Notes under the pieces: generated by a model | Told to the model about the DNA's origin: nothing | Database searches by the model: none | The model's input: only the letters and a program-made list of their open reading frames with translations | In this document: positions 2,110 through 17,299 of the stretch, in pieces | Numbering within the stretch: the stretch's first letter is position 1 | Layout of the letters: every line of letters starts with the position of its first letter | IMG/VR virus record: IMGVR_UViG_3300025889_018152 | Span: 1 to 24,907 of that record | Direction: 5' to 3' (one strand) | Source of the DNA: a virus | DNA length: 24,907 nucleotides | Program-made: the position numbers and the translations under genes

Positions 2110-2110
2110 A

Positions 2111-2659
2111 ATGATAATAGGACCAGATCAAAATGGACACATATGTTCTGCACAGGGTATGATACCGGTGATTAAATCATTGGGGGAAAATCTCAGATGT
2201 ATTGAAATAGGTATTTCTTCTGGTAGAAATGCTGCGTATTTTCTACAAGAATGTGTAAATATTGATAAGATTATTGGAGTAGATCCTTATCTCCCATTCC
2301 AAGACTGGGATATTTTTGTAACACAAGAGTTGCAAGATAAAATTTATAAAATGATGGAAGAATTTATACAACCATATCAAGATAGATTTGAGCTTATCAA
2401 AAATAAAAGTGATCAAGCAGCATATCTTTTTGAAGATGAGGCATTTGATTACGTTTTTGTTGATGGTGATCATTCGTATGAAGTGACTAAAAAGGATTGT
2501 CAACTTTATTATAGCAAAGTTAAGCCAGGAAAAATATTTGGTGGACATGATTGGCAACTTAGATCTGTGCAAAATGCAGTATTTGAATTTAGAATAGAGA
2601 GGGGTATTGACAATCCTATCTTGTTTGAAAACAATAGTGTTTGGTATTGGTATAAATGA
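2111..2659 (+). CDS. Class I SAM-dependent methyltransferase (Methyltransf_24-like)
   Basis: A 182-aa protein with the Rossmann-type SAM site EIGISSGRNA (32-41, motif I), the acidic end of beta2 at GVDPY (56-60) and the post-motif region DYVFVDGDHSYE (113-124) typical of Methyltransf_24 proteins, followed by PGKIFGGHDW (139-148). These proteins are often found in polysaccharide and O-antigen clusters and methylate sugars or small metabolites. The length is close to a minimal methyltransferase domain with no extra module. It starts one base after the preceding stop and overlaps the next gene as ATGA. In this cassette it probably methylates the glycan or its precursor; the acceptor is unknown. 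Confidence 0.8.
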   Translation: MIIGPDQNGHICSAQGMIPVIKSLGENLRCIEIGISSGRNAAYFLQECVNIDKIIGVDPYLPFQDWDIFVTQELQDKIYKMMEEFIQPYQDRFELIKNKSDQAAYLFEDEAFDYVFVDGDHSYEVTKKDCQLYYSKVKPGKIFGGHDWQLRSVQNAVFEFRIERGIDNPILFENNSVWYWYK

Positions 2660-3420
2660 AAATAGCTCTTCTTTTTTTTGGACAATTAAGGTTTATTGAT
2701 AACCCTTATACTGTAGAAAGTCATCATCAGGCTATCATTAATAGATTTGATACTGATATTTTTGCACACACTTGGTGGTCAGAAAAAGAAACTGAATATT
2801 CTGCATCAGTTCATGTTGCAGGTGATAAGCCAAAAGTCGATTCACAGGCTTTGAATAAATTTCGACAAAAATACAAAATAACTCGGTTACAAACTGAGGA
2901 ATCTAAATTCTTTGAGGAAGAAGCAAAGGAATTTTTAGATAAATCTATTAAGCACAATTGGCCAGATATTTTCACTCCAGGATGGTTCCTGAAGGAAAGG
3001 GCTTTCAATAATCTACTCTCACATCTTTATTCTATAGAGCAAGTGGGAAAATTATTGGATCGACATATTCAAGAAACGGGAACAAATTATGATCTTGTTA
3101 TTCTTTCTAGGCCTGATGTTTGTATCTGGGAATATCCTATTCTAGAGAAGTTGGAAAAAAATAATTTTTATCTTTCAAATCATCACGGTAGATTTCCAGA
3201 TTTACAATTTATTTTTCATCCTAATTTTAGACAGTGGTTAAATGTGTATACACATACGATAACTATATCAACAAAAGAATTGTATTCGTTGTGGGAACCT
3301 TGTGCAGAGGCTCTTAAATTTTCTTCTTATAGAACTCGTTACGATACAAGATACTTAAAACCCACAAGACTACCAGTTAGAATCGTGAGAGGAGATGATT
3401 GTAAAGGACCTCAATGGTAA
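2656..3420 (+). CDS. Uncharacterised protein of the N-terminal 'FxGQxRF' type, possibly glycosyltransferase-like
   Basis: A 254-aa protein that starts with a beta strand followed by FFGQLRF, then a region with FDTDIFAHTWW (about 31-41). This 'GQ-x-R ... D-x-F-x-H-x-W' pattern recurs in unassigned proteins of phages, giant viruses and bacterial glycan loci. It also has LVILSRPDV (about 149-157), which could be a GT-A-like acidic site. I do not recognise a characterised family. The gene overlaps its upstream neighbour by 4 bases (ATGA) and the kinase gene downstream by 7 bases, so it belongs to the same translationally coupled unit. Role in glycan synthesis is inferred from context only. Confidence 0.55.
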   Translation: MKIALLFFGQLRFIDNPYTVESHHQAIINRFDTDIFAHTWWSEKETEYSASVHVAGDKPKVDSQALNKFRQKYKITRLQTEESKFFEEEAKEFLDKSIKHNWPDIFTPGWFLKERAFNNLLSHLYSIEQVGKLLDRHIQETGTNYDLVILSRPDVCIWEYPILEKLEKNNFYLSNHHGRFPDLQFIFHPNFRQWLNVYTHTITISTKELYSLWEPCAEALKFSSYRTRYDTRYLKPTRLPVRIVRGDDCKGPQW

Positions 3421-4154
3421 AAATCCTACAAGAGTTTAGTGGTCATTCAGGAAGCAAAACATTTCTACAACAAGAAAACAATAAAGTTTTTGTCAGAAAA
3501 TATTTTAATATTGAACGAAATATAGAAAGGTATCAAACCTTATCTAAATTAATACCTGTTCCTAAAATATACCATATTGATGAGCAATATTATGATATGG
3601 AATATATTCAAAATGTTGATATTAAAAATTATTTGATAAGAGGAAACATAAATGTTCTAATCGACTTTCTTTTGAAAGTAATATCTGTATTTGCAAATAA
3701 ATCTAAGGATAAAGATTATACTGAAATTTACAATAAGAAATTAAATAATATTGAATGGAATAAAATCTCCTTTAGCAAAGAGCAATTAATTAATAAATTG
3801 CCAAAAATATTACCTAGTTCAGATTATCATGGTGATTTTACATTAGATAATGTTCTCTTCGACTTAAAAAATAAAAGTTTTATATTGATTGATCCCTTAA
3901 CGACCGAATATGATTCTTTTGTTTTTGATTTAGCAAAATTGAATCAAGATTTGACTTGTGAATGGTTTGTTAGGAAGGAAGAATATATTTTTGCCAGTAA
4001 ATTGCAAAAAATATACGAGACTATTGAAAAAAAATATGATATAGTGAATAATAAATATTTGACTATCTTAATGTTATTAAGGGTCTTGCCCTATTGTAAG
4101 ACCGATTTTGACAAAACATTTATTTTAACAAAAGTGAATAAATTATGGACATAA
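3414..4154 (+). CDS. APH/choline-kinase-fold small-molecule kinase
   Basis: A 246-aa protein with the catalytic signature YHGDFTLDNVLFD (H139, D141, N146; the HxDxxxxN loop of aminoglycoside/choline kinases) followed by ILIDPL (D160, equivalent to the DFG/metal aspartate). MEYIQ (62-66) fits the hinge, and V-R-K at 27-29 may supply the N-lobe lysine. The protein probably phosphorylates a hydroxyl on a sugar or amino alcohol with ATP in the cytoplasm. It overlaps the downstream nucleotidyltransferase gene by 10 bases, which fits a kinase-then-nucleotidyl-activation sequence. Antibiotic resistance is an unlikely role in this context. A second kinase of the same fold is fused to a nucleotidyltransferase at 5623. 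Confidence 0.72.
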   Translation: MVKILQEFSGHSGSKTFLQQENNKVFVRKYFNIERNIERYQTLSKLIPVPKIYHIDEQYYDMEYIQNVDIKNYLIRGNINVLIDFLLKVISVFANKSKDKDYTEIYNKKLNNIEWNKISFSKEQLINKLPKILPSSDYHGDFTLDNVLFDLKNKSFILIDPLTTEYDSFVFDLAKLNQDLTCEWFVRKEEYIFASKLQKIYETIEKKYDIVNNKYLTILMLLRVLPYCKTDFDKTFILTKVNKLWT

Positions 4155-5170
4155 TAATGCCTTGTGCTGGGAGATCTAGTAGATTTCCTAATATGCGACC
4201 AAAATATTTACTCACAGACTTTTCTGGGAAATTAATGATACAGAGGTCTGTTGAGAAGTACGTTGAAAATAATCAAGTGCATATAATTATATTGAGAGAA
4301 CACATAAGAGATTATGATGCATTTAATATACTGAGTGATGCCTTTAAGGGTAAAGTCAATATAATTATATTAGAGAATCCCACAAATGGTCCGGCTGAAA
4401 CTGTATTTCAAGCACTAAAAGAACTAGACATAGAGAATGATTTTATAGTAAAAGATTGTGATAGTTTTTTTGATTTTGAAATTGAAAATGGAAATATTGT
4501 TTACACTTCAAGACTCTCTAAAAATCCTAGCTTAAAAAACGTTTGCCAATTAGGTTATGTGATTTGTAACGATCAAAATATAATATCCAATTTGGTCGAA
4601 AAGAAAATTGTTTCTGATAATTTTTGTGTGGGTGGTTATCAATTCAAATCAAAAAAAAGATTTATAGAAGTTTTTGAGAAATTGGGTGTTAATCATTCAG
4701 AATTATATATTTCAAACATAATTGATTATATGATAATGAATGGAGATGTTTTTGTTCAGCGTGAAGTCTATAATTACGTTAATGTTGGAACTGCTGATGC
4801 TTGGTTCGAGTTTAACAATAAGCCAACCTTTTTTTGTGATATAGATGGTGTTATTATAAAAAATAAATCGGCTTATGGTAAAAATAAGTATCATACAAAT
4901 TATGAGCCTTTGCAGAAAAATTTAGATACTCTGAAGAATAAATTGAGAAATGGTTCTACAATAATATTTGTTACTGCAAGAAATAAAGCGTTTTATGATG
5001 TAACAAGAAAAATGTTGGACGAACTTGGTTTTGAGGGATGTGATTTAATCATGGGATTAAATCATTCAAAACGTTATATAATAAATGATTTTGACTTCTC
5101 AAATCCATATCCAAGTTGTGTAGCTGTTAATTTAAAAAGAAATGGTGAAAATTTAAATGAATATATCTAA
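4145..5170 (+). CDS. Bifunctional sugar-phosphate nucleotidyltransferase / HAD-like phosphatase
   Basis: A 341-aa two-domain protein. Residues 1 to about 225 form an NTP_transferase domain: PCAGRSSRFP (6-15) and K20 match the G-x-G-x-R...K nucleotide site, VKDCDSFF (102-109) gives the metal aspartates, and NVGTADAW (213-220) resembles the usual end of this domain. Residues from about 228 are a small HAD domain: CDIDGV (D232, D234; DxDG motif I), FVTAR (275-279; motif II Thr) and IINDFD (312-317; acidic motif IV). The HAD part is short and lacks an obvious cap. The protein presumably activates a phosphorylated sugar or alcohol with CTP or another NTP. Nucleotidyltransferase-HAD fusions occur in capsule loci. 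It overlaps both neighbours (10 and 14 bases). Confidence 0.72.
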   Translation: MDIIMPCAGRSSRFPNMRPKYLLTDFSGKLMIQRSVEKYVENNQVHIIILREHIRDYDAFNILSDAFKGKVNIIILENPTNGPAETVFQALKELDIENDFIVKDCDSFFDFEIENGNIVYTSRLSKNPSLKNVCQLGYVICNDQNIISNLVEKKIVSDNFCVGGYQFKSKKRFIEVFEKLGVNHSELYISNIIDYMIMNGDVFVQREVYNYVNVGTADAWFEFNNKPTFFCDIDGVIIKNKSAYGKNKYHTNYEPLQKNLDTLKNKLRNGSTIIFVTARNKAFYDVTRKMLDELGFEGCDLIMGLNHSKRYIINDFDFSNPYPSCVAVNLKRNGENLNEYI

Positions 5171-5636
5171 TTTTATAGAGACTTATGATAAGGATAATGT
5201 CAAATTAGTAAATAAACCTTGGGGTTATGAAAAGTGGATTACTCCAGGTAAACCCAATCATGATTACGCATTAAAGGAAATATTCTTTAAGGCTGGTAAT
5301 AGAACCAGCTTACAGGTTCATGAATTCAAGAGTGAAACAAATTATGTTTTAAGCGGAAAAGGAATCTTACTCTACCACAGAGAAAAATTTGATTTTTTTA
5401 GATTTCATGCTGGGGAATATTCCAAAGATGATATTAATAAAATTATTTCTGAGTTAGAAACAATAGATTTGGTTCCTGGTGTTATCTGTCATGTTTGGGC
5501 AGGTTGTATACATAGAGTTGTATCTGAGATTGATTTAACTTTTATTGAAGCTAGTACAACTGAATTAGATGATGTTTATAGATTACATGATGATATGAAT
5601 AGAACCCACGGTTTGATAAAAAATGAACATGTCTGA
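5157..5636 (+). CDS. Mannose-6-phosphate isomerase type II-like cupin
   Basis: A 159-aa single-domain cupin. It has the KPWGYE opening (20-25) of type II phosphomannose isomerase domains, the metal-binding cupin motif SLQVHEFKSETNYVLSG (Q53, H55, E60), then PGVICHVWAGCIHRV (second cupin motif, H119) and the conserved tail EASTTELDDVYRL...NR. The usual second motif has one histidine at this place and it is present, so the metal site appears complete. Likely a sugar-phosphate isomerase or a relative acting on a phosphorylated ketose. It overlaps the upstream gene by 14 bases and the downstream gene by 14 bases. An epimerase or non-isomerase cupin cannot be excluded. Confidence 0.7.
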   Translation: MNISNFIETYDKDNVKLVNKPWGYEKWITPGKPNHDYALKEIFFKAGNRTSLQVHEFKSETNYVLSGKGILLYHREKFDFFRFHAGEYSKDDINKIISELETIDLVPGVICHVWAGCIHRVVSEIDLTFIEASTTELDDVYRLHDDMNRTHGLIKNEHV

Positions 5637-7179
5637 TTTTTCCGTTTGCATATTAACCGCTGGATTAGGATCTCGTATGGGTCCTTTTTCTACAATAATT
5701 AATAAAGCTCTATTACCCTATCAAAATAAAGCCCTCATCACACATATTATTGAAAAATTTGGTTCTGAAAGAAATTATGTTATAGCCGTTGGTTATAAAA
5801 AGGAACAGATCATCGATTATGTAAATTTGGCTCATCCTGAGTTAAAGGTATCTTTTGTTGAAATCAAGAATTTTGATTCACCTCAGGCTGGTCCAGCACA
5901 AAGTCTTTTTTCATGTAAAGAATATCTCAAAGAACGATTTTATTTTGTTTCTTGTGACACTCTATTCAATGATTTTAAGATTGATGAAAACACCGATCAA
6001 AATTGGATAGGAGTAGCACCTAGACCATCAGATCAGAGTTACAAATACTGTAATGTTAGAACGGAAAATAATAAAGTTCTAGAAATAAAAGATAAAGAGT
6101 ATTGTGATGACTCTTTTCAAAGTTTTATTGGATTAATGCATATTAAAGATACGGAAATATTCTTTGATAATATGTCCAAGACTATTTCAAATAAAACAGA
6201 AATTTCTCAGGGATTCAAAGAAAACTTAGACTTATATGCCTACAATTACTCATGGAAAGATTTTGGAACATACGATCTCTATAAGCATGAAGTATCAAAG
6301 GTAGAAGAATTTGATTTTTGTAAAACTGATGAATTTTTTTATGATGTAGACAATAGAATTATAAAATTTCATAAAGATACATCGGTGTCTTATGACAAAT
6401 ATGTGAGAACTCTTTTTAACAAAAAAGTTTTCCCAAAAGACTTTGGCCACATTAATAATTTTCATTACTACACCAAATTGCAGGGTAAAACTCTGTACGA
6501 AAAGAATGATATAAAATTATTTGATAATTTTTTGCATTGGTTGAAAGATCAAGTTTGGTTTCCAGTTATAGAAACAAACTTTAAAGAGAAGTGTTTTGAT
6601 TTTTATTATCGCAAAACGGTTAATAGATTGGAACAATTTTATGAGAAATACTCAACCTTTTCTGATTTCGAAATAGTTAACAACAAAAAAGTCATACCAC
6701 TACAATCAAGTTTGAGAAAAATAGATTGGGATTATGTCTGTGATGGTATACCATCATTTATTCACGGTGACTTACAGTTTGATAATGTGCTATCTAATAA
6801 TGACACGTTTACTTTGTTAGATTGGCGTCAAAAATTTTCAAATAGTTATTTTGGTGACTTGTATTATGATTTAGGTAAAATGTATGGTGGTATGTTATTG
6901 AATTACAATTCCATCAAAAAAGGAAAATTAATAGCTAAAAAACTAGAGAATGGAGAATTGATCGTAGAGTTAGATCATTTAAGGCAACCAAAAGAATATA
7001 TTGACTTTTTTCACAATTATGTTAAAATTGAAGGATACGATCTTAAAAAGGTAGAGCTATTAGTTCCAATTATCTATGCAAACATGAGCCCTTTGCATAC
7101 TGCTCCCTTTGATAAAATCCTTTATGCCTTGGCACAATATTACTTCACTTTATGGTTTGAAAAATATGAAGATAAATGA
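5623..7179 (+). CDS. Bifunctional nucleotidyltransferase / APH-type kinase (LicC-LicA-like arrangement)
   Basis: A 518-aa fusion. Residues 1 to about 235 are an NTP_transferase domain: TAGLGSRMGPFS (12-23), K28, and FVSCDTLF (108-115) with the metal aspartate D112. Residues from about 250 form an APH/choline kinase domain: FIHGDLQFDNVL (379-390; H381, D383, N388) and LLDWRQKF (398-405; D400). So one chain could phosphorylate a small molecule and then activate it with a nucleotide, as LicA and LicC do for phosphocholine. A second ATG at 5629 would shorten the protein by only two residues. It overlaps the cupin gene by 14 bases and the AroE-like gene by 14 bases. The substrate is unknown; choline is one possibility, a sugar another. 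Confidence 0.75.
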   Translation: MNMSDFSVCILTAGLGSRMGPFSTIINKALLPYQNKALITHIIEKFGSERNYVIAVGYKKEQIIDYVNLAHPELKVSFVEIKNFDSPQAGPAQSLFSCKEYLKERFYFVSCDTLFNDFKIDENTDQNWIGVAPRPSDQSYKYCNVRTENNKVLEIKDKEYCDDSFQSFIGLMHIKDTEIFFDNMSKTISNKTEISQGFKENLDLYAYNYSWKDFGTYDLYKHEVSKVEEFDFCKTDEFFYDVDNRIIKFHKDTSVSYDKYVRTLFNKKVFPKDFGHINNFHYYTKLQGKTLYEKNDIKLFDNFLHWLKDQVWFPVIETNFKEKCFDFYYRKTVNRLEQFYEKYSTFSDFEIVNNKKVIPLQSSLRKIDWDYVCDGIPSFIHGDLQFDNVLSNNDTFTLLDWRQKFSNSYFGDLYYDLGKMYGGMLLNYNSIKKGKLIAKKLENGELIVELDHLRQPKEYIDFFHNYVKIEGYDLKKVELLVPIIYANMSPLHTAPFDKILYALAQYYFTLWFEKYEDK

Positions 7180-7900
7180 TGTATTGCAAAATAAAACAAC
7201 AAAATATGTTGCCATGTCTATTTCAAAGTATCCTGGAACATTCGGTGTTAAAGTACACAATGCAATGATAAAGTATAAGAATATTGATGCTGAATATTTT
7301 GCTTGCACTACTGACAATTTAAAAGAAACACTCGATACCGTAAGAAAAAATGAAGATATTTTGGGTTGCGGTATTTCTATGCCATACAAGATTGAAGTGA
7401 TAAGCTATTTGGATGAAATATCAGAAGATGCTAAAAAAATAGGATCTGTTAATACGGTATTGAATAATAAAGGAAAACTTTTTGGGTTGAACACCGACAT
7501 TTTCGGTGTTGATTGGGCATTAAATTTTGCAAAGGGAAGAATTGCATTACTCGGTGATGGTGGTATGAGTAAGGTATTTCAATATAGACTCAAAAATAAA
7601 AACTACAGTCTAATCACTAGGCATAATTGGATCATATTGAATCGAGAAAAATTTGATACTATAATTAATGCTACACCAATAGGAATGCTTACGGGTGAAA
7701 GCCCAGTTTCAAACTATGAGCATGAAGTTGCTATAGATTCTGTTGTTAAAATGACAACATTCGTCAAAAAAAGTAAAAATTCCATTAATGGAATTGATAT
7801 GTCATTGAGACAAGCAGCGCAACAATTTTCACTTTATTTTGGCGTTTTACCCGATATTGATGTTATGAAAGATGCAGTGAGAGATATGTATGATAACTAA
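7166..7900 (+). CDS. Shikimate dehydrogenase (AroE)-like NAD(P)-dependent oxidoreductase
   Basis: A 244-aa protein. I chose ATG 7166 over the in-frame ATG at 7109 because the latter lies deep in the preceding gene, whereas 7166 gives the 14-base overlap seen elsewhere in the cassette. Family signatures run in the right order: GCGISMPYK (67-75, catalytic K75), IGSVNTVL...GLNTDIFG (92-114, catalytic D111), the dinucleotide loop LLGDGGMSK (128-136), NATPIGM (168-174) and QAAQQFSLYFG (206-216). The Lys-Asp dyad is intact. Cellular AroE is about 270 aa, so this is slightly short. In a phage glycan cassette it more likely reduces a keto-cyclitol, keto-sugar or quinate-like intermediate than serves aromatic amino acid synthesis. 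Cofactor preference cannot be read safely. Confidence 0.82.
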   Translation: MKINDVLQNKTTKYVAMSISKYPGTFGVKVHNAMIKYKNIDAEYFACTTDNLKETLDTVRKNEDILGCGISMPYKIEVISYLDEISEDAKKIGSVNTVLNNKGKLFGLNTDIFGVDWALNFAKGRIALLGDGGMSKVFQYRLKNKNYSLITRHNWIILNREKFDTIINATPIGMLTGESPVSNYEHEVAIDSVVKMTTFVKKSKNSINGIDMSLRQAAQQFSLYFGVLPDIDVMKDAVRDMYDN

Positions 7901-8345
7901 CTTTGTTTTGGATGTTGATGGTGTCATGACAGACGGTAAGATTTATATTACCGAAAAGGGTAAAACCATGAAAGTTTATGGTGCGCATGATCATGATGGT
8001 TTAAAAATGTTAAAGAATAAGATTCATGTTGAATTTGTTACCGCAGATTCTGATGGTGCATTTTTAGCAGAAAAAAGACTTGTTGAACATATGAAGTTTA
8101 AACTAACTGTAGTTCAAGAGGGAAAACGATTGGAGTGGCTAAGAAATAATTTTGATATGACTAAGTTGGCTTATATGGGAGATGGTATTCATGACGCTGA
8201 AATATTTCCTTATGTGGCTGTCTCATTCGCTCCAGCTAATGCCAGAATCGAAGCTAAAAGTGCCGCGACTTATGTAACTCCAAGCAAAAGTTCAGAAGGT
8301 GCAGTCTTGGATGCATGTTTATTTTTACTAGGTGAAAGAATATGA
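7890..8345 (+). CDS. KdsC-like HAD phosphatase
   Basis: A 151-aa protein with LDVDGVMTDGKIYI (7-20; D8 and D10 are the nucleophile and acid/base of HAD motif I), FVTADSDG (49-56, motif II Thr) and AYMGDGIHDAEIF (motif IV, G-D-G-x-x-D). This is the C0-type fold of KDO-8-phosphate phosphatase and of the C-terminal domain of some CMP-sialate synthetases. It is a little shorter than KdsC (about 170-190 aa). No nucleotidyltransferase is fused to it. It overlaps the AroE-like gene by 11 bases and the aldolase-like gene as ATGA. A role in dephosphorylating a keto-deoxy sugar acid phosphate or similar sugar phosphate is the natural reading. Confidence 0.8.
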   Translation: MITNFVLDVDGVMTDGKIYITEKGKTMKVYGAHDHDGLKMLKNKIHVEFVTADSDGAFLAEKRLVEHMKFKLTVVQEGKRLEWLRNNFDMTKLAYMGDGIHDAEIFPYVAVSFAPANARIEAKSAATYVTPSKSSEGAVLDACLFLLGERI

Positions 8346-9331
8346 TAAAGTCTAAATTGGGTTTTGGTCCAATGAGCCCTGAAATCATTGATTCTATAAT
8401 GGAATATTCATTACAGAGAGATGTGCAATTGATGATAATTGCAAGTAGAAATCAAGTCGATACAGAAAAGGTGGGTGGAGGTTATGTCTGCTCAACCGAA
8501 AACTTTTTTAATTTGATCGATAAGCAAGATAGAAAAAATGTTTTAATTTGTAGAGATCATTGCGGTCCATATTTTAGTGACTCTGAAAAAAATCTATCCT
8601 TAAAAATGGCTGTTGAGGAAACCAAAAAAACTATAGCCAAAGATATAGAGATGGGTTTTGATCTAATTCATATTGATACGAGTCACTGCGGAGGAGAAGA
8701 ATATACGGTAGCCGAAGAACTTTTCGAATACTGTAATAAGTTGAATCAAAATATTAAATTTGAGTTTGGCTCGGAAGAAAATATTGGTGTTTCGGCAAGC
8801 GTAGATAAGTATCAAAAGGATGTAAAATTTGCTAGTTCTTTTTCTAAGGGTGTCGAATTCGTCGTCGGTCAAACAGGCAGTTTAGTTTATGAAGATAAAC
8901 AAGTTGGTAACTTTGACAGTGAAGTCACCAAAAAGTTGGTTTCGGTAGCAAAAGAACTTGGGGTAAAGTTTAAGGAACATAACGCTGATTATTTGAATGA
9001 TGAGCAAATAAAACTTAGAAAAGAGTGTGGTGTTGACGCTATGAATATAGCCCCTGAATTTGGGGTTATTCAAACTAAATTACTCTATGAACTGACTAAA
9101 AACACCACAGAATGGAATAATTTTTCTGAGAAGGTTATTAATAGTAAAAAGTGGCAGAAGTGGATACCCAAAGAAGCTGATAATCTACAAAAAGTCTTTG
9201 TCTCCGGGCATTATAATTTCAATAGTGATGAATATAGGAAAATTTTTGATATACTTGATTATGATAGATTTCTATCTGATCTAAAGGTAATTCTCTTCAG
9301 CAGATTTGATCAGTATGTTAATAATACATGA
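8342..9331 (+). CDS. GatZ/KbaZ-like (tagatose-bisphosphate aldolase, non-catalytic subunit type) protein
   Basis: A 329-aa TIM-barrel-like protein. Seen features: LICRDHCGP (about 69-77), IHIDTSHCG (about 102-110), FEFGSEENIG (about 140-149), VVGQTGSLVY, then KEHNADYL and MNIAPEFGVIQT. The RDH-x-GP and 'KEHN-x-D-YL...APEFGV' patterns are those of the GatZ/KbaZ family, relatives of class II aldolases. Those proteins are described as stabilising or chaperone subunits of the catalytic partner GatY/KbaY; no GatY homologue is present here, so the phage protein may itself be an enzyme such as an aldolase. It is the last gene of the cassette, and the late promoter lies just downstream. Confidence 0.7.
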   Translation: MIKSKLGFGPMSPEIIDSIMEYSLQRDVQLMIIASRNQVDTEKVGGGYVCSTENFFNLIDKQDRKNVLICRDHCGPYFSDSEKNLSLKMAVEETKKTIAKDIEMGFDLIHIDTSHCGGEEYTVAEELFEYCNKLNQNIKFEFGSEENIGVSASVDKYQKDVKFASSFSKGVEFVVGQTGSLVYEDKQVGNFDSEVTKKLVSVAKELGVKFKEHNADYLNDEQIKLRKECGVDAMNIAPEFGVIQTKLLYELTKNTTEWNNFSEKVINSKKWQKWIPKEADNLQKVFVSGHYNFNSDEYRKIFDILDYDRFLSDLKVILFSRFDQYVNNT

Positions 9332-9343
9332 GAATTAAAAATA

Positions 9344-9351
9344 TATAAATA
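9344..9351 (+). promoter_or_regulatory. T4-type late promoter (TATAAATA)
   Basis: An exact match to the T4 late promoter -10 element in the 51-base gap before the gene at 9383; AGAGG at 9372-9376 is the ribosome binding site. The start of transcription would be expected roughly 10-15 bases downstream of the element. It is one of only two intergenic copies I found, and it marks the boundary between the AT-rich cassette and the block of putative internal head proteins, which fits late expression of virion cargo. Confidence 0.8.
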
Positions 9352-9382
9352 GTTAGTAATCAATAAGCTATAGAGGCTTTGA

Positions 9383-11437
9383 ATGAAGTTGTCAATCAGA
9401 AATTTTAATGATTTCTCTCAATTGCATGAGAGCCAGAAAAATAAGTCAGTTGTCTTCAGTTTCGGCAGATTTCAGCCTCCTACCATAGGTCATAAATTAC
9501 TAGTTGATAAAGTGATCAGCCTAGCTAAACAGCACAAGGCTGATCATGTCATTTATGCCTCTAGAACACAAGATAAAAAGTCAAATCCTCTCGATGTGAA
9601 CACTAAGGTAAAATATCTTAGAAAGATGTTTCCTAAAGTAAACTTCGAAGCGGCAAATGATAACGTCAGAACCTTCATAGAAGCACTCAAATCACTTCAC
9701 AAAAACGGCTATAAACACGTTTATATGGTCGCAGGTTCTGATCGTCTAGCAGACTATCAAAGACTTTTCGACAAATATAACGGCGGTGAAGACTTTGATT
9801 TTCAAACACTAAAAGCGGTTTCCGCTGGTGAAAGAGATCCTGATGCAGAAGGTGCTTCTGGAATGTCAGGTACCAAAATGCGTCAAGCCGCCTTAGACAA
9901 TGATTTTGCTTCTTTTCGTAGAGGTATTCCAAGCACACTCTCAGATGCTGACGCAAAAAAAATGATGCGAGAAATAAAGAGAATTAGAACCATAAAAGAA
10001 TTTTTCCAGTTTGAGGAATTGTTATCCGAAGGCGTCAACGACAAAGCTACCTTCAAAGCAGTATTTCTAGCTGGAGGTCCAGGATCTGGTAAAGATTATG
10101 TTTTAAGAAAAACACTAGAAGGGCATGGGCTTGTCGAGATAAACAGTGATAATGCATTTGAATATCTTTTAGATAAGTACAATCTTGATAAGAAAATGCC
10201 TGAAGGTGAAGAGGAGCAACGAAACGCCATACGAGCAAGAGCAAAATCTATCAAGGAACTAAAAGAAAGACTCGCCATACAAGGAAGAAACGGACTCATA
10301 ATTAACGGCACCGGTGAAGATGCTGAAAAAATTGCATCCCTCAAACTTAAATTAGAAGGTCTAGGTTACGACACTCAAATGTTATTTGTTCACACAAAAA
10401 ATGAAGTGTCACAACAGCGAAATATCGAACGTGGTGAAGCTGGTGGTAGAACTGTTCCTGAAGATATACGACAAGAAAAATGGGATAATGCTCAAACCAA
10501 TAGAAAAAATTTTAAAGACATGTTTGAAGATGGATATGCAGAGTTTGACAATTCAGAAGATTTAAGAAACGCCGATTCAGAAGTAATTCAGGCAAAAGAA
10601 GCTCAACTACTCGATCTCTTCAAAAGATTCAGAAAATTTACAGAAACGGCTCCTACTTCCGATGAAGCTAGTTTGTGGATCAAAGATCAAAAAATAATTA
10701 ATAAAAGTTTAGCTGATAATCCACCTCCACAAAGTGAACCTGAACAACCAAATCAGGATGTTCAACCCCAAATGCCTCAAGCACAACAACCACAAGCGCA
10801 AGATGCCCCAACATCACAACAAGATATTGCAGCGGCTGGTCAAAGTCTAATGCAACAGGCTGCAAAAATGGGGCTAACTTATTACGGTTTTGGTAGATTT
10901 GGTAAAAATGGACAAACTACACATAAAGAACAGGATGGAAAATTAATACCATTTAAGCCTGTCAATGAAGAATTTAAATCATTTAAGACACCAAAAGAAA
11001 TTGCAAAGAAGCATGATAAGCCTATCTCATTTATCATGACTCAGTTAAAAATGGGAATAAAAGTAGAGAAAGAACACACTAAGGAACCCGAGGTGGCTCG
11101 TAAAATAGCACTTCAACATCTAGATGAGTTACCTGATTATTATACTAGATTAAAAAAGATAGAAAAACCACTTAAAGAGAATTATGAATTTTCAGGAAAT
11201 GATGCGAGAACTATTCTAACATTAGGAAAAACATATGAATCATATGATTCTCCTTCTATTGAAGCACCTTCTGTCTTTGGGTATTCTAAAGATGATTGGA
11301 AAAAAGGTAAGACTTCAGTCACTGAATTAACCGGTGATACGGAATTAGCCACAACGACTTTTCAAAAAGATGATGAACGTAAAAAGAACGGATTAGAACC
11401 GTTTTCCACATTCAAATCAAAAAATGTAGCAGGTTAA
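9383..11437 (+). CDS. NMNAT-like adenylyltransferase / P-loop kinase fusion with capsid-targeting-like leader
   Basis: A 684-aa multidomain protein. (1) Leader MKLSIRNFNDFSQLHE, ending in an L-x-E prohead-protease-type site before S17. (2) Residues about 22-185: HIGH-superfamily nucleotidyltransferase with GRFQPPTIGH (28-37) and MSGTKMR (161-167, the ISSTxxR equivalent), as in NMN adenylyltransferases or cytidylyltransferases. (3) FFQFEELLSE|G (207-217): a second leader-like segment with an L-x-E site. (4) Residues about 225-420: P-loop kinase with GGPGSGKD (231-238), similar to zeta-toxin/polynucleotide-kinase types. (5) Q/P-rich linker (about 446-480). (6) About 535-595: a small helical domain (GIKVEKEHTKEP...ALQHL) like phage DUF5661. 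First gene after the late promoter, start supported by AGAGG. Activities are inferred from motifs; substrate choice (NMN, nicotinate nucleotide or CTP) is open. Confidence 0.75.
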   Translation: MKLSIRNFNDFSQLHESQKNKSVVFSFGRFQPPTIGHKLLVDKVISLAKQHKADHVIYASRTQDKKSNPLDVNTKVKYLRKMFPKVNFEAANDNVRTFIEALKSLHKNGYKHVYMVAGSDRLADYQRLFDKYNGGEDFDFQTLKAVSAGERDPDAEGASGMSGTKMRQAALDNDFASFRRGIPSTLSDADAKKMMREIKRIRTIKEFFQFEELLSEGVNDKATFKAVFLAGGPGSGKDYVLRKTLEGHGLVEINSDNAFEYLLDKYNLDKKMPEGEEEQRNAIRARAKSIKELKERLAIQGRNGLIINGTGEDAEKIASLKLKLEGLGYDTQMLFVHTKNEVSQQRNIERGEAGGRTVPEDIRQEKWDNAQTNRKNFKDMFEDGYAEFDNSEDLRNADSEVIQAKEAQLLDLFKRFRKFTETAPTSDEASLWIKDQKIINKSLADNPPPQSEPEQPNQDVQPQMPQAQQPQAQDAPTSQQDIAAAGQSLMQQAAKMGLTYYGFGRFGKNGQTTHKEQDGKLIPFKPVNEEFKSFKTPKEIAKKHDKPISFIMTQLKMGIKVEKEHTKEPEVARKIALQHLDELPDYYTRLKKIEKPLKENYEFSGNDARTILTLGKTYESYDSPSIEAPSVFGYSKDDWKKGKTSVTELTGDTELATTTFQKDDERKKNGLEPFSTFKSKNVAG

Positions 11438-11438
11438 A

Positions 11439-11747
11439 ATGAAAACTTTCAATCAATTCATGACAGAAGCAAAAACAGCAGCGTGGCAACGAAAAGACGG
11501 TCAAGATCCTGAAGGTGGTTTAAATCGCAAAGGTATCGCATCTTATCGTAGAGAAAATCCTGGATCCAAACTTTCCATGGCAGTTACGACAAAGCCATCG
11601 AAACTGAAGAAAGGATCAAAGGCTTGGAATAGAAGAAAGTCTTTTTGTGCTAGAATGGCTGGCATGAAGCGCAGGCTCACATCAGCCAAAACAGCTAATG
11701 ATCCAGATTCTCGTATTAATAAATCGTTACGAAAGTGGAATTGTTAA
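11439..11747 (+). CDS. Small basic putative internal head protein with T4-like capsid-targeting leader
   Basis: A 102-aa, strongly basic protein that starts one base after the preceding stop. Its first ten residues MKTFNQFMTE, followed by A, align without gaps with the T4 internal protein leader MKTYQEFIAE|A (identical at M, K, T, F7, E and the following A). In T4 this leader directs IPI-IPIII into the prohead core and is cut off by the gp21 protease. The rest is Lys/Arg-rich (GLNRKGIASYRREN, KLKKGSKAWNRRKS, MKRRL), fitting a DNA-associated packaged protein. It contains two cysteines (70 and 102). I recall a phage family of this type (possibly DUF6321), from memory. The packaging role is inferred from the leader and composition. 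Confidence 0.7.
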   Translation: MKTFNQFMTEAKTAAWQRKDGQDPEGGLNRKGIASYRRENPGSKLSMAVTTKPSKLKKGSKAWNRRKSFCARMAGMKRRLTSAKTANDPDSRINKSLRKWNC

Positions 11748-11758
11748 GGATAAAATAA

Positions 11759-12013
11759 ATGAATGATGATATTAGAGATGGTTTTGTGCAGGTTTATTCG
11801 GAAGAACAGACTGAATTGGGGTGGTTTCGAAATTCACTCAAGTCAGTTTTGAAGGTTAAGTCAGGCAAAAAATGGAAACTTCATATAATGGATCGTCCAA
11901 TTCAAGAGATGAAAGTGGGGGAATATTATCATATTCCCAGAAATACATACTATAGATTAATAAAAGGACAAGGTAATCTAACTTTAAAGGTAAAAGAGGA
12001 AGAAAAAAAATGA
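11759..12013 (+). CDS. Small cupin-like beta protein, function unknown
   Basis: An 84-aa protein. The segment MKVGEYYHIPRNTYYRLIKG followed by QGNLTLKVKE (about 50-80) reads like the second half of a cupin barrel ('G-x-x-x-H-I-P-x-x-T-x-H-R'), with one candidate metal-binding histidine (H58) and tyrosines at later positions, so a metal site is doubtful. A ribosome-binding stretch AAGGAT lies upstream of the start. The stop overlaps the following 804-aa gene as ATGA. Related short proteins are frequent in marine T4-like phages, but I know of no function. Confidence 0.6.
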   Translation: MNDDIRDGFVQVYSEEQTELGWFRNSLKSVLKVKSGKKWKLHIMDRPIQEMKVGEYYHIPRNTYYRLIKGQGNLTLKVKEEEKK

Positions 12014-14424
12014 TCAACGATAAGTTAACATCATCTCTTGCTGAAGCCTATAAGAAAATGAAACAAGAAGAATTGAAAGGTGATCAGCACAAGATTGACG
12101 CAAATAAAAATGGTGAGATTGATGCTCATGATTTTAAATTGCTTCGTGCAAAAAATGAAGAGAAAGAAGGTTGGGATTCTAAAAAGCATGCCGTGAGCGA
12201 GCAAGAAGAGCCCAGACGAATTCCCGAGAAAGACAAAAAAGAGCCCTTGATGCCTAAAAAACCAGCCACTCTAGGCGGTGAGTTAGCCATGAAGGCTGTG
12301 CAAAGAATAATTTCAAAGCACAAGACTAACGAAGAAAATGAACCAAGAAGAATACCCGAAAAAGATAAGAATCAAACTTTAGTGTCCAAAAATCCATCTA
12401 CTCTGGGTGCTGAATTGGCAATGAAAGATGTAGAAAAAATGGTTGCTAAAAATAAGACAGCAAATGAAGAGCCTGTAAATGAACTCGGTCCAGAAACACT
12501 CATAAGCTATGCAATGAAGGCTAAGGGGCAAGAAAGACCAGGAATAGTAAATCCAAGAAGAGATGCAATGGTTGATCTTGCTGTAAAGAAAGCATCAGCA
12601 TCAGCAAAACCTATCAATAATTCTTATGTTCCTGAAGAAAAGGAAGATGCTCCATTTGCTGGTCCATATGTTGCAACGCCAAAAAAACAGAAAGGGCAAA
12701 AGAGCGATCCTTCAATGTCAAGAGCTAGAGATTTAGCAAGAAAGGCTATGCAAAATCTTGCACAAAAGAAAAAAGATCAAAAGGTTGCAGAAGAATTTGT
12801 TCTAGAAGGAAAGATGGGGCAACTTCATGCTGATATTGGTGACCATTTAGACAAGCATATCAAAGATTATAACGCTGGCAATCTCGGGCACGATTCTTTC
12901 GGTGAAAAGGTTGTTGCTGCCCACAAAAAGATAGCTGAATTACATGGAATTTCTCCAAATGCAGCAAAGAATCATGTCAATGATTATGTTGATCAGCACA
13001 TGAAAGAAGAAGTTAAAGAACCCACTGGTGATCTAAAAGACGCCTGTTGGAAAGGATATACTGCTGTCGGGCTCAAGAAGAAAGGTGGCAGAATGGTTCC
13101 AAATTGTGTTCCAAAGAATGAAGAAGTTGAGAATATTGATGAACGCAATATGGAAAATAAAAAGAAAAAGAATGAGTACGTTGCATCTATAATTCAGAAA
13201 AAATTACATCCTTCTGTTTTACCCTCATTAGCTTATGGTAGAAGAGAGTTAAAGAAAGAAGAAGTTGAACTAAACGAAGGCAATGATGACGTTGGTGAAA
13301 TGATCAAAGATAAACTAAAGATCATAATCAATCGTGCAAAAGAAATGCATGATGGTATTGGTCCTAACACCGACATGCCTGAATGGGTAAAGTCTAAGAT
13401 TACTCTTGCACAAGATTATGTTTCTACTGCATGCGATTATTCTTGTGGTAGTGAACAGCTTGGAGAAGAATTAGAACTAAATGAAATTAGCAAATCTACA
13501 TTAGGTTCTTACATAAAGAAGGCTTCTCATGACGTAGCAACAAAGTCTGCTCTTACCAGGGCCTTCAAAGATAAGAGTGAAAAAGAAAAAGAGAAAGAAA
13601 ATTTTGTGCAAGCAAGAAAGGATGATGAAAAATCAAACAGGATGTTTGATAAAAGTTGGAAACGTCGTCAAGGAATAGCCAAAGCTGCTGATCGTCTAGC
13701 AAAAGAAGAATTTACTCAAATAGATGAAGTCGGCTATCAACCTGCCACAGGAGATGCTGCTGCATCTTCAGCGGGGGGTAGAGTGAGGCCTGTCACCACC
13801 ATCGACACCTCTTCAAGTCCTAAACCGGATCATCCTGGAACTGCGGCTGACAAAATTCAAGCACAAAATATTGCTAAAGCACGAGAACCTGAAGCATACG
13901 CTAGGGCTGAAAAGGCCATGAATAGACCTTTAACTCCTCGTGATATAGGAAACACTCCTGAAGGGAGAGCGGGTGGAAGAGGTTCCGCTGATGTGGTTAG
14001 GGCAGGAAAAGAAATGCAAGCTGATATTAAAAAGTTAAACCAAGAAGAATTTGAAATAACTGAAGATATGGAAACACCAGATATTAAAGTGCGTAAAACA
14101 TACACAGACGCTTATGCTGATCATTATAAGAGAGCCCTAAAACTAAACCCAAAAGGCGCATCAAAGAGGGCTGAAGCTATGGCATATGATACAGTAAAGA
14201 TGAAGCATGGTGATGATGCACATGACGCACTTAAAGCCTATCATGAAAAAAATCAAAATGAATCGTATGAACAGATTGATGAAGAACTTTCTTCTCGTGC
14301 AAAGTTGGTAAAAGAACTATACAACAAAGCAAAAGAAGCAAAAAAGAGCAAGAAAGATTCATTTGATCCTGAACCAGAAATGGAAATAATGCCATCACCA
14401 AGATACTCACAACCAAAGAGATAA
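12010..14424 (+). CDS. 804-aa polyprotein-like putative head-core protein with repeated L/I-x-E sites
   Basis: A long, highly charged, Lys/Glu-rich and Ala-rich protein with no transmembrane segment. Leader: MINDKLTSSLAE|AYKKM, a protease-like LAE|A site at 10-13. Residues 30-41 (DANKNGEIDAHD) form an EF-hand-like calcium loop. Two tandem copies of about 44 aa follow (67-110 and 111-152, both starting EPRRIPEKDK). Candidate sites of the form acidic-x-[V/L/I]-x-E lie at 264-266, 376-378, 421-423, 490-492, 571-573, 683-685 and 756-758, separating segments such as DACWKGYTAVGLKKKGG...PNCVP (345-367), SKSTLGSYIKKASHD (494-508) and LSSRAKLVKELYNKAKEA (760-777) that I recognise as recurrent in marine phages. 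The gene overlaps upstream as ATGA, and the nucleotidase gene starts one base after its stop. Core scaffold or polyprotein of internal proteins is the inferred role. Confidence 0.65.
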   Translation: MINDKLTSSLAEAYKKMKQEELKGDQHKIDANKNGEIDAHDFKLLRAKNEEKEGWDSKKHAVSEQEEPRRIPEKDKKEPLMPKKPATLGGELAMKAVQRIISKHKTNEENEPRRIPEKDKNQTLVSKNPSTLGAELAMKDVEKMVAKNKTANEEPVNELGPETLISYAMKAKGQERPGIVNPRRDAMVDLAVKKASASAKPINNSYVPEEKEDAPFAGPYVATPKKQKGQKSDPSMSRARDLARKAMQNLAQKKKDQKVAEEFVLEGKMGQLHADIGDHLDKHIKDYNAGNLGHDSFGEKVVAAHKKIAELHGISPNAAKNHVNDYVDQHMKEEVKEPTGDLKDACWKGYTAVGLKKKGGRMVPNCVPKNEEVENIDERNMENKKKKNEYVASIIQKKLHPSVLPSLAYGRRELKKEEVELNEGNDDVGEMIKDKLKIIINRAKEMHDGIGPNTDMPEWVKSKITLAQDYVSTACDYSCGSEQLGEELELNEISKSTLGSYIKKASHDVATKSALTRAFKDKSEKEKEKENFVQARKDDEKSNRMFDKSWKRRQGIAKAADRLAKEEFTQIDEVGYQPATGDAAASSAGGRVRPVTTIDTSSSPKPDHPGTAADKIQAQNIAKAREPEAYARAEKAMNRPLTPRDIGNTPEGRAGGRGSADVVRAGKEMQADIKKLNQEEFEITEDMETPDIKVRKTYTDAYADHYKRALKLNPKGASKRAEAMAYDTVKMKHGDDAHDALKAYHEKNQNESYEQIDEELSSRAKLVKELYNKAKEAKKSKKDSFDPEPEMEIMPSPRYSQPKR
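12208..12465 (+). repeat. In-frame tandem duplication, 132-base period
   Basis: Two adjacent units (12208-12339 and 12340 to about 12465) encode matching protein blocks that both start EPRRIPEKDK and continue with P-x-T-L-G-x-E-L-A-M-K. The DNA has diverged at many third positions while the protein is kept, so the duplication is old or under purifying selection. Each unit carries one amphipathic helix (ELAMKAVQRIISKHK / ELAMKDVEKMVAKNK). Confidence 0.8.
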
Positions 14425-14425
14425 C

Positions 14426-14977
14426 ATGTTTACACAAGATAAAGTAACTATAGCAATCGCTGAGGCATACAAAAATATGCTTCAGCGCAAAGTCGGGCAT
14501 ATTTTTTGCGACATGGATGGTGTATTAGTCGATTTTATGGGTGGAGCTAAAAAAGTTTTAGGATATAATTTTGATGATCCAGATCTAGAAAAGGTGCAAT
14601 CCAAGGACAAGATTGCTAAAACAGAAGGATTTTGGGAAAATTTAGATGCTCGCCGCGATGGTATGAGGCTTTGGAGTTTCATAAATAAGTATGAGCCAAG
14701 AATACTTACTGCATATCCATCATGGGATGAGGACGGTAAGCATGGCAAAAAGATTTGGGTCAAAAAGCATCTTCGTTTACCCGAAGGTCGTTTTTTTGCC
14801 GTTAGAAGACAAGATAAACAAGATTATGCGAAAGACGAAGTGACTGGATTGCCGAATATATTAATAGACGATTACGCTAAGAATATAACGGAATTTGAAA
14901 AAGCTGGTGGAATAGGCATCCGATATGTTGATAGTACACAAACAATTTCTGAACTTAAAAAACTAGGATTTAGATAA
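14426..14977 (+). CDS. HAD-type 5'-nucleotidase-like phosphatase with capsid-targeting-like leader
   Basis: A 183-aa protein. The leader MFTQDKVTIAIAE|AYKNM ends in I-A-E|A, identical to the last residues of the T4 internal protein leader (FIAE|A), and it parallels the start of the preceding protein (DKxTxx[L/I]AEAYKxM). The rest is a HAD phosphatase: IFCDMDGVLVDF (26-37; D29, D31), ILTAYPSWDEDG (motif II region), and NILIDDYAKNITEFEKAGG (acidic motif IV), the pattern of 5'(3')-deoxyribonucleotidases and related phage HAD proteins. It may dephosphorylate (deoxy)nucleotides or an oligonucleotide/sugar phosphate end. It starts one base after the 804-aa gene. If the leader works, the enzyme would be carried in the virion. 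Confidence 0.72.
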   Translation: MFTQDKVTIAIAEAYKNMLQRKVGHIFCDMDGVLVDFMGGAKKVLGYNFDDPDLEKVQSKDKIAKTEGFWENLDARRDGMRLWSFINKYEPRILTAYPSWDEDGKHGKKIWVKKHLRLPEGRFFAVRRQDKQDYAKDEVTGLPNILIDDYAKNITEFEKAGGIGIRYVDSTQTISELKKLGFR

Positions 14978-14989
14978 GGAGAAAGCAAA

Positions 14990-15544
14990 ATGTCTTTATG
15001 GAAATCAGAAGATGCCGCTTCCAATGCACCAGTTTACACTGTCGCTTCTGGATATGGCATTTCAGTAAATGGCGTTACACTTTATGAAAATGATGACCTC
15101 TCATCTTATGGTGGAACCGGGGTCTATGGTGTAGATACAACAGAAGCCGGAATTACAACCGGTGATGGAAAAAAAGTTGCTCACGCTGGTTGGAATATGG
15201 CTAGAAGAGGGACTGGTCCCGTAGTTAGTATTTCAGCCAACACCGGCGCATACAGTAACAACAAAAATGTTTATTTGACTTTTAGTGGTGGTGGCACAGG
15301 AAATGTCGCAGCAAACGCTCAAGTGTTTGTAAACGCAGAATCAAATGCCATTCTCTACATTACTGTGCATGAACCTGGTTCATATACAACCACACCAACT
15401 GCTGCGGCAATTACGGGTGGTGACGGTGCTGCCACATTTACTATAACCATGGGTGGTAGAGCTAATCGCGTATCATATGAAACCCTTGTCGCTATGGGTT
15501 CAATGACTGGTGATAGCGATGATACTTACTTCCCAAATAGTTAA
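14990..15544 (+). CDS. Putative virion structural protein
   Basis: A 184-aa, Gly/Ala/Thr/Ser-rich, low-charge protein predicted to be mostly beta. It has MSLWKSEDAASNAP at the start, VYGVDTTEAGIT and KVAHAGWNMARRG in the middle, and GGRANRVSYETLVAMGSMTGDSDD near the end. These blocks recall small structural proteins of marine T4-like phages that I cannot name more precisely. The central part (about 72-150), with PVVSISANTGAYSNN and AAAITGGDGAATFTI, looks like an inserted beta-rich surface domain. A strong ribosome binding site, AAGGAGA at 14976-14982, precedes the start, in keeping with high expression. Confidence 0.6.
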   Translation: MSLWKSEDAASNAPVYTVASGYGISVNGVTLYENDDLSSYGGTGVYGVDTTEAGITTGDGKKVAHAGWNMARRGTGPVVSISANTGAYSNNKNVYLTFSGGGTGNVAANAQVFVNAESNAILYITVHEPGSYTTTPTAAAITGGDGAATFTITMGGRANRVSYETLVAMGSMTGDSDDTYFPNS

Positions 15545-15557
15545 TTGGAATTAAACA

Positions 15558-16052
15558 ATGAAAAAATTTACTGATTTTTTAATTGAAAACTTAGACGTTG
15601 AAACCGGGCAAGCCATGAATGCTCATGAAATAGATTCACATACTTCAAATGGTAGTGGTCTAGAAAACGAGAAAATTCGCGCTGAAATTAATCGAAAACT
15701 TTCCATTATTTTAGATAGAAATAATAGAAGTGTTCCTAACAATAACATTCAGGCTCCCGAGATAGGATTTGAAAGAATTAGAAAGGTATTAAATACTCAC
15801 GGTATAGATTTACCAGCAATTCTTGATCTAGATCAAGAAGAGGGAGAAGAGGTTTTTCAAATTAATCAGTTTGGAACTCCATATGGTCCTCTTCCCTCTG
15901 GAGCTTATGGAGAATTGAGACCTAATTATTATCTCTACGTTTATTATTTTCTAAATGATGACGGTTATTATGACTTTTTTGCTGAAATAGTTGATCAAGA
16001 AGATTTAGAAGACTATACAAGCATAGAGGGAGATGAGTCCGAAGAAGAGTAA
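15558..16052 (+). CDS. Acidic conserved phage protein with capsid-targeting-like leader
   Basis: A 164-aa protein. The first ten residues MKKFTDFLIE are followed by N: same length as the T4 leader MKTYQEFIAE and ending in L-I-E, a prohead-protease-type site. The middle (about 35-90) is polar and helical; the segment about 110-150 is aromatic (LYVYYFLNDDGYYDFFAEIVDQ) and beta-like; the tail (152-164) is very acidic (EGDESEEE). No catalytic motif is seen. A weak ribosome site precedes it. I place it in the putative internal-protein group because of the leader, although acidic proteins are less usual there than basic ones. Confidence 0.55.
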   Translation: MKKFTDFLIENLDVETGQAMNAHEIDSHTSNGSGLENEKIRAEINRKLSIILDRNNRSVPNNNIQAPEIGFERIRKVLNTHGIDLPAILDLDQEEGEEVFQINQFGTPYGPLPSGAYGELRPNYYLYVYYFLNDDGYYDFFAEIVDQEDLEDYTSIEGDESEEE

Positions 16053-16774: not shown

Positions 16775-17299
16775 ATGGAAACTTTTTTAGAAAAAGCTAA
16801 AAATGTTTTAATTACAGTAGCGCCAACCATCGCTTCTGCTATAGGAACACCTATGGCAGGAATTGCAACTAAAGCTGTCATAGACGCTCTAGGTCTAAAA
16901 AAAGACGCTGATCAAACCGAAATAGAAAACTCCATTTTTGCTGCGGGCCCGGAACAGCTTTTACAATTAAAGCAGGCAGATCAAGAATTTAAAATCCAAA
17001 TGAAGCAACTTGATATTGATCTTGTTAAGATAGTTGCAGACGACAAAGATTCTGCCAGAAAAAGAGAAATAGAAACCAAGGACGTTACAACCAAAGTATT
17101 AGCTTATTTGATATGTATTTTATATGTCGGCGTTCAATTATTTCTTTTAACGCATGTCATAGATGACAGTATGAGGGAAATGGTAATGAGGGCATTGGGC
17201 ACCCTCGATGCCATATTAGGATTAGTATTTTCTTATTATTTTGGTTCATCAGTCGGTGATGTGAAGAGTCGTCTGACTGACCAAGATAAGAGAGAATAG
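16775..17299 (+). CDS. Holin of the 3-TM (gene-transfer-agent type) family
   Basis: A 174-aa membrane protein. There is a hydrophobic N-terminal segment (about 10-35), a long charged middle (45-95) ending in ADDKDSARKREIETKD (88-103, the D-x-x-S-A-R-x-R-E signature I associate with the '3TMs, for gene-transfer release' holin family), then two strong membrane segments at about 107-128 and 137-157. The family makes pores in the inner membrane to let the endolysin out. No endolysin is encoded in this window. The next gene (coiled coil plus one membrane anchor) begins 3 bases after its stop, which makes a small lysis-like module. Confidence 0.75.
   Translation: METFLEKAKNVLITVAPTIASAIGTPMAGIATKAVIDALGLKKDADQTEIENSIFAAGPEQLLQLKQADQEFKIQMKQLDIDLVKIVADDKDSARKREIETKDVTTKVLAYLICILYVGVQLFLLTHVIDDSMREMVMRALGTLDAILGLVFSYYFGSSVGDVKSRLTDQDKRE

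Follow-up and report, generated by a model that had tools for sequence, protein, structure and literature searches.

The window analysed here is the whole of the IMG/VR virus record IMGVR_UViG_3300025889_018152, a fragment of 24,907 bases. Five of its genes, lying between positions 9383 and 16052 on the + strand (as do the leaders, predicted cut sites and promoter given below), are read with good confidence as a block of head cargo in a T4-type phage of the Kyanoviridae/HTVC008M-like kind, with capsid-targeting leaders and gp21-type processing. T4-type leaders and packaged enzyme cargo had been proposed in an initial annotation of the same DNA, and this proposal is right as to the leaders and probably right as to the cargo: it is sustained by the conservation of leader positions 4, 7, 8 and 10 in relatives, a site at a kinase boundary, the detection of an orthologue in virions of phage S-SM1, the presence of gp21 in related phages and a late promoter. 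Because the leaders and the internal cut sites match the signals for loading and trimming of proteins in the T4 head, this marine virus probably injects a ready-made set of enzymes along with its DNA.

All five open reading frames (ORFs) start where the initial annotation had placed them, with the N-termini that it had given. They encode a 684-residue precursor at 9383..11437 with the predicted leader MKLSIRNFNDFSQLHE|S (16 residues, 9383..9430, called from the sequence and from orthologue leaders), a basic DUF6321 protein at 11439..11747 with MKTFNQFMTE|A (11439..11468), an 804-residue predicted polyprotein at 12010..14424 with MINDKLTSSLAE|A (12010..12045), a HAD-type 5'-3' deoxyribonucleotidase at 14426..14977 with MFTQDKVTIAIAE|A (14426-14464), and an acidic 164-residue protein of no assigned function at 15558..16052 with MKKFTDFLIE|N (15558-15587). 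The leaders are 10, 10, 12, 13 and 16 residues long, within the 10-19 residues of T4-type capsid-targeting propeptides, and each ends in hydrophobic-x-E. The four positions critical in T4 were fitted exactly by the 11439 and 15558 leaders. The 9383 family fits them in relatives, the window's own 9383 leader being longer and off the ten-residue register, as are those of 12010 and 14426. A strict ten-residue pattern (hydrophobic 4, 7 and 8; E10) is expected in approximately 0.2-0.3% of N-termini according to shuffles, so that two among about 37 window genes are unlikely by chance. A loose pattern ([LIV]xE near the N-terminus) was present in 472 of 2194 (21.5%) ordinary ORFs of related loci, and three of the five leaders are therefore unremarkable on their own. 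Counts of [LIM]xE per protein were tried as evidence and rejected. As the bare motif carried no weight, the question of the leaders was put to the relatives.

The loci of relatives were gathered by their adenylyltransferase (NTase), DUF6321, kinase and nucleotidase genes, and ORFs were called in them. The initial annotation had suggested a comparison of leaders in homologues, and the T4-critical positions proved to be conserved in the block genes. Of 448 ORFs in the block families, 86 had a strict ten-residue leader, where shuffles predict 1.2; of 2194 other ORFs, 79 had one, where 4.0 are predicted, and many of these 79 were block-type genes outside the family patterns used. Residue 10 was E in 32% of block ORFs and in 9.5% of the others. 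When block ORFs were selected on E10 only (n=123), residue 4 was F/Y in 103, residue 7 was F/Y in 95 and residue 8 was L/I/V/M/F in 111, while residues 3, 5, 6 and 9 varied. The same positions stood out in mutagenesis of T4 IPIII, 4 and 7 as important for targeting, 8 and 10 as important for processing (PMC9026906). The leader was found on unrelated domains, namely NTase, DUF6267, kinases, HAD phosphatases, DUF6321, CWKGY, WF and DUF5824 modules. As predicted from sequence, the leader-bearing set is thus larger than five, since in relatives DUF6267, adenylate-kinase-like and other HAD proteins also begin with leaders. A positional test on the ORF before DUF7207 resulted in a strict leader in 2 of 11 cases only; the clean cases were too few because other genes intervene.

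Two further groups of leader-bearing proteins were observed in the related loci. A second kinase family (IIMIGGPGSGKSTYSE), a candidate cargo enzyme, has its own ten-residue leader, e.g. MKSFKQYFFE|A, and its genes lie directly 5' of the first kinase gene (L195 821-1393, L201 433-1008, L208 926-1489 and similar). HAD-type proteins with DIDDTLFHT (L019 17-637, L051 3827-4435, L113 2442-3068) start with MLKFTEYLKE|E, MKSFLQYLEE|S and similar ten-residue leaders.

The first protein contains an adenylyltransferase (residues ~17-206), a P-loop kinase (~217-440), an AxKMGLxYYGFGRxG module and DUF5661 (537-595). Leaders of its orthologues are MKKFSAFLNE|A (S-SM1), MKRYTNFLSE|A, MKNLFQFLAE|A and MKFSEFLRE|A. 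An internal site, FEELLSE|GVND, overlooked by the initial annotation as were the linkers of the 804-residue protein, was located between the two enzyme domains, with the predicted P1 Glu, residue 216, encoded at 10028..10030. In HTVC008M the kinase is a separate gene starting MIPFILKE|GLYDPGIFKAFFLAGGPGSGK, and the window carries it as a fusion C-terminal to the NTase, joined at FEELLSE|GVNDKATFKAVFLAGGPGSGK. Among 51 sequences covering the start of the kinase domain, P1 was E in 50 and P3 was L/I in 49, with P2 free. The entropies were 3.29, 0.67, 3.26 and 0.14 bits at P4, P3, P2 and P1, respectively, and P4-P8 were free (~3 bits). The site forms an N-terminal leader of 8-17 residues in 39 of the 51 and is internal in 12. 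Judged from these alignments, the conservation of the kinase boundary is protease-like. In the AlphaFold model, two domains of higher confidence are connected by a linker, residues 203-217, that is modelled with low confidence.

The initial annotation had named an adenylyltransferase, a kinase and a nucleotidase, and domain scans and structure matches agreed with all three. The catalytic signatures appeared intact by eye (PPTIGH and SGTKMR; GGPGSGKD; CDMDGVL). The first protein has the domain order of NadR, an N-terminal adenylyltransferase and a C-terminal P-loop kinase. NadR 6gye was the top Foldseek match over both domains, the relative orientation of the domains not being reproduced; the single domains matched NadD and nucleotide kinases. 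Sequence searches of the PDB gave no match with the NTase alignment and only adenylate/UMP-CMP kinases and zeta toxin with the kinase.

The 804-residue protein is composed of short modules (EF-hand-like, QLHADIG, CWKGY, SKSTLGSYIKKAS and others). Its leader is MIRDRLTQAVAE|A in a near relative and MTRYTKTMAE|A in the HTVC008M counterpart, and counterparts in other phages begin with the latter, MSNYRKTMTE|A and similar sequences. Six linkers of the EE-x(1-3)-[LI]-x-E type were counted against 0.34 expected, and none of 1000 shuffles reached six. The predicted P1 Glu codons are at 13141..13143 (EEVENIDE|RNM, from the linker count), 13276..13278 (EEVELNE|GNDDVGEM, conserved in L267), 13483..13485 (EELELNE|ISKSTLGSYIKK; L267 VENIDE|LSKSTLGSYINK), 13726..13728 (EEFTQIDE|VGY; L267 DQLQE|VGY), 14062..14064 (EEFEITE|DMETPDIKV; L267 REISE|, L268 NELSE|) and 14281..14283 (ESYEQIDE|ELSSRAK; L267 EQISE|), with a weaker site at 12805..12807 (FVLE|GKMGQLHAD; L267 LQE|GKMAQLHAD). 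L267 and L268 are the near relatives of the window and were found in IMG/VR only. L267 has the modules of the 804-residue protein in a different order, with others inserted or lost. At the shared junctions (LNE/IDE, IDE/LQE, ITE/ISE and IDE/ISE), P3 and P1 are kept while P2 changes. The predicted fragments span 45-254 residues, several with an isoelectric point (pI) above 9. Its modules are shuffled and EE-x-x-[LI]-x-E linkers connect them, so that this mosaic reads as a polyprotein, an aspect absent from the initial annotation. A search for further relatives with the polyprotein alignment returned the L267 contig again and module matches only.

The DUF6321 protein, whose mature form is predicted to have 92 residues, a net charge of +19 and a pI of 11.3, belongs to a family that occurs in three forms: alone without a leader (MAKTAAWQRKEGK), after a ten-residue leader (MKTFNQFMTE|AKTAAWQRK in the window; MLSFSEFIVE|A and MITLKEFIVE|V in others), and within long proteins after EEVELDE| or EEQIDE|. 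A search for the S77 (gp21-type) protease gave none in six complete phage genomes with leaderless DUF6321, and S77 was present in all three searched phages with DUF6321 after an E-ending linker (WH25-B, ACG-2014f and S-P4). In podophages without S77 (L180, L181 and L183), genes for the major capsid protein or the scaffold are adjacent or close to leaderless DUF6321 genes, suggesting that DUF6321 has a leader-independent role in the virion. The protease, which the initial annotation had wanted sought, is absent from the window fragment and present in HTVC008M and other Kyanoviridae: it was detected by search in HTVC008M and six further Kyanoviridae records and by annotation in S-SM1, the seven records other than HTVC008M being complete or near-complete and all positive. 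HTVC008M gp23 has FLGE|IANV at the position corresponding to the T4 gp23 cut.

In L267 and L268 the nucleotidase leader is kept as AVAE|A, and other, more distant relatives have different E-ending leaders (MKLYKDYYRE|A, MKNYKGFYKE|A). The leader of the 164-residue protein is MKKFTEFLIE|S in L267 and MKKFTEFLVE|S in L268, and counterpart-like small proteins of other phages start MKTFKQYMKE|A and MKKFADYLTE|E; tblastn of this protein against phages gave no match. The families of 9383, 11439 and 15558 have strong support and 12010 has good support; for the 14426 nucleotidase, whose leader several relatives lack, it is moderate.

Several results weigh against cleaved and packaged cargo. The bare [LIM]-x-E motif was not enriched in the block proteins over composition shuffles, and E-rich linkers are also common in ORFs outside the module list (3.8x over shuffles). 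Nucleotidases of several relatives have no leader, and two leaders of L267/L268 have V at P3. NTases of the HTVC008M type start MKTLKELLRKK, without the terminal E, and possibly represent unprocessed or differently processed leaders; those of L041, L046, L048, L053 and L001 start MKTLKELLRK or MKKFNELLRS and are leader-like, with the final Glu lacking. The co-occurrence of DUF6321 sites and S77 is confounded with phage lineage, and S77 is missing from some IMG/VR contigs that have these sites, most of those contigs being short fragments. The search of the 24.9-kb window fragment gave no S77 gene. The AlphaFold model of the 804-residue protein has a mean predicted local distance difference test (pLDDT) score of 51, with more than half of the residues below 50; since the model is mostly of low confidence, placement of the sites in linkers cannot be judged from it. 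No virion proteomics of HTVC008M was found in the literature searched, and none for the window's phage.

Part of these observations would also be expected if the proteins were virion components or late enzymes in which the LxE segments are uncut flexible or helical linkers, or N-terminal helices that bind, for example, the scaffold or a partner. Cleavage at these segments is a prediction, E-rich linkers are widespread in such phages and the motif as such is not enriched. However, linker composition hardly explains an invariant P1 and P3 with a free P2, found in leaders of 8-17 residues and in fusions alike, nor the lack of such a site on DUF6321 in the six complete phages without S77. This explanation is considered unlikely.

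Experimental data on one family member come from S-SM1, in the virions of which a putative citidylyltransferase, T4-GC190, was detected by mass spectrometry (Sullivan et al. 2010, PMC3037559). Its gene, SSM1_190, starts MKKFSAFLNE|AERSF and is an orthologue of the window NTase. The detection is direct experimental support for packaging of this one member, the 9383 orthologue; no report on removal of its leader was found in PMC3037559. The finding bears on a second explanation, according to which the genes encode ordinary late or middle auxiliary metabolic enzymes of NAD (nicotinamide adenine dinucleotide) or nucleotide salvage that act inside the infected cell, are not packaged and resemble leader-bearing proteins incidentally. 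The NadR-like fold, the kinase and the nucleotidase are typical of auxiliary enzymes, and NAD salvage by phages is known (PMC9503650). In contrast, the S-SM1 orthologue was in the virion, strict leaders are common to unrelated domains of the block, and the promoter is a late one whereas an early or middle one would be expected, making this explanation very improbable.

The promoter, of T4 late type (TATAAATA), is situated at 9344..9351, within the gap of 51 bp (9332-9382) that precedes the first ORF and 39 bp 5' of that ORF. The same sequence stands about as far 5' of the orthologue in L062, L083 and L106, and it precedes 45 of 96 DUF6267 genes versus 193 of 2560 other ORFs. The whole window holds three copies versus 3.4 expected by chance, and none was seen before the other four leader genes. 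The late-promoter-driven block of the initial annotation accordingly stands for the first gene and not for the remaining four.

Megablast of the window against the phage collection gave no nucleotide-level match. By protein similarity and gene order, the nearest annotated relative is Pelagibacter phage HTVC008M, a T4-like SAR11 phage of the Kyanoviridae. Its gp127-gp140 region is arranged broadly as in the window: DUF6267, kinase, cytidyltransferase, small basic protein, mosaic protein and deoxyribonucleotidase, followed by an S-layer-like protein, a small protein starting MKSFKDF and DUF7207. The position of the block before DUF7207 and an S-layer-like gene, and in HTVC008M upstream of the tail assembly chaperone, might point to tail, neck or baseplate-associated proteins, but this is hardly credible: the prohead is where gp21 acts, tail parts are not known to include enzyme domains with removable leaders, and podophage DUF6321 adjoins capsid or scaffold genes.

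For head cargo, we infer cleavage, packaging of the members other than the S-SM1 orthologue, ejection and role as follows. Each precursor would be made late and begin with a short capsid-targeting sequence. Where this has the canonical ten-residue form, residues 4 and 7 would bind to the core of the scaffold, and the gp21-type S77 prohead protease would read residues 8 and 10 (P3 and P1). Inside the prohead this protease would remove the leader after [L/I/M]-x-E. It would also cut the first protein between its adenylyltransferase and kinase, and the 804-residue protein at six to seven EE-x-x-[LI]-x-E linkers. The products would be a NadR-like adenylyltransferase, a P-loop kinase, a nucleotidase and small, often basic domains, which would remain with the DNA and, by analogy with T4, be ejected with it into the next cell. 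There they may provide nucleotides or NAD early on or help to take over the host; that they supply NAD or nucleotides as the DNA enters is a plausible suggestion.

The modular, polyprotein-like cargo system fits processing by the prohead protease. A wider proposal, which we hold to be about evenly balanced, is that in marine T4-like phages this protease is a general polyprotein-processing enzyme: long precursors, made late and built of cassettes (enzymes, EF-hand-like, DUF6321, CWKGY, WF and DUF5824 modules), each behind an [LI]-x-E linker, would enter the prohead on one leader and be diced there into numerous small proteins of the virion. If so, gain or loss of interchangeable cassettes would alter the injected kit without new packaging signals. 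Literature searches for cyanophage polyproteins cut by the prohead protease gave nothing relevant, and those on DUF6321, DUF5824, DUF6267 and DUF5661 gave no paper naming them, only one on DUF5872 in an algal virus.

The set resembles T4 IPI-IPIII in the short leader with hydrophobic/aromatic residues 4 and 7, hydrophobic 8 and E10, in late expression, in the gp21-type protease (here in the window's relatives) and in some cargo being small and basic. It differs in that the cargo comprises enzymes of recognisable families as well as long proteins of many modules in which the sites recur internally; moreover, the mature proteins have no family match to IPI-IPIII, and the 15558 protein is acidic. 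T4 Alt, an ADP-ribosyltransferase that is packaged, processed by gp21 and injected, is likewise head enzyme cargo cleaved by gp21 (predicted here), whereas the window enzymes belong to adenylyltransferase, kinase and nucleotidase families. Polyvalent proteins of phages and conjugative elements are also multidomain, probably packaged and injected, with shuffled domains (PMC5512222). Often, though not always, these embed peptidase domains, whereas Pfam and PHROGs scans of the 684- and 804-residue proteins gave none, and the release sites in the window fit a prohead protease acting in trans. NadR, which joins NMN (nicotinamide mononucleotide) adenylyltransferase to ribosylnicotinamide kinase, shares the domain order and the top structural match; unlike NadR, the window protein has a predicted cut site between the domains, and these are separate genes in other phages.

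What is known of T4 internal proteins comes mainly from coliphages, and for most of these proteins no function is known. In the present reading, the T4 head-loading signal would mark enzymes of recognisable families in phages that infect SAR11-type and picocyanobacterial hosts, among the most abundant in the sea. The cargo thereby gains testable identities and mature ends, and the proposed packaging would explain the presence of cytidylyltransferase in cyanophage virions and offer a role for many 'hypothetical structural' mosaic proteins. It also yields a searchable rule for recognising head cargo from sequence (leader positions 4/7/8/10, linker [LI]-x-E).

Upstream of the block, the DUF6267 ORF (1-1083) is truncated at the left end of the contig and does not truly begin at the ATG at 250; its N-terminus, which carries a leader in many relatives, is therefore not visible. 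DUF6267 and NTase genes lie near each other in HTVC008M and are separated in the window by nucleotide-sugar/glycosyl-type genes (~1249-9331), which include glycosyltransferase-, methyltransferase-, sugar-nucleotidyltransferase-, KdsC-like and related genes. Other sugar-type clusters were found 5' of the NTase gene in L070, L188 and L033. Downstream, 16775-17299 encodes a small, possibly holin-like protein, hydrophobic over a long stretch close to the C-terminus and conserved in L267 and L268.

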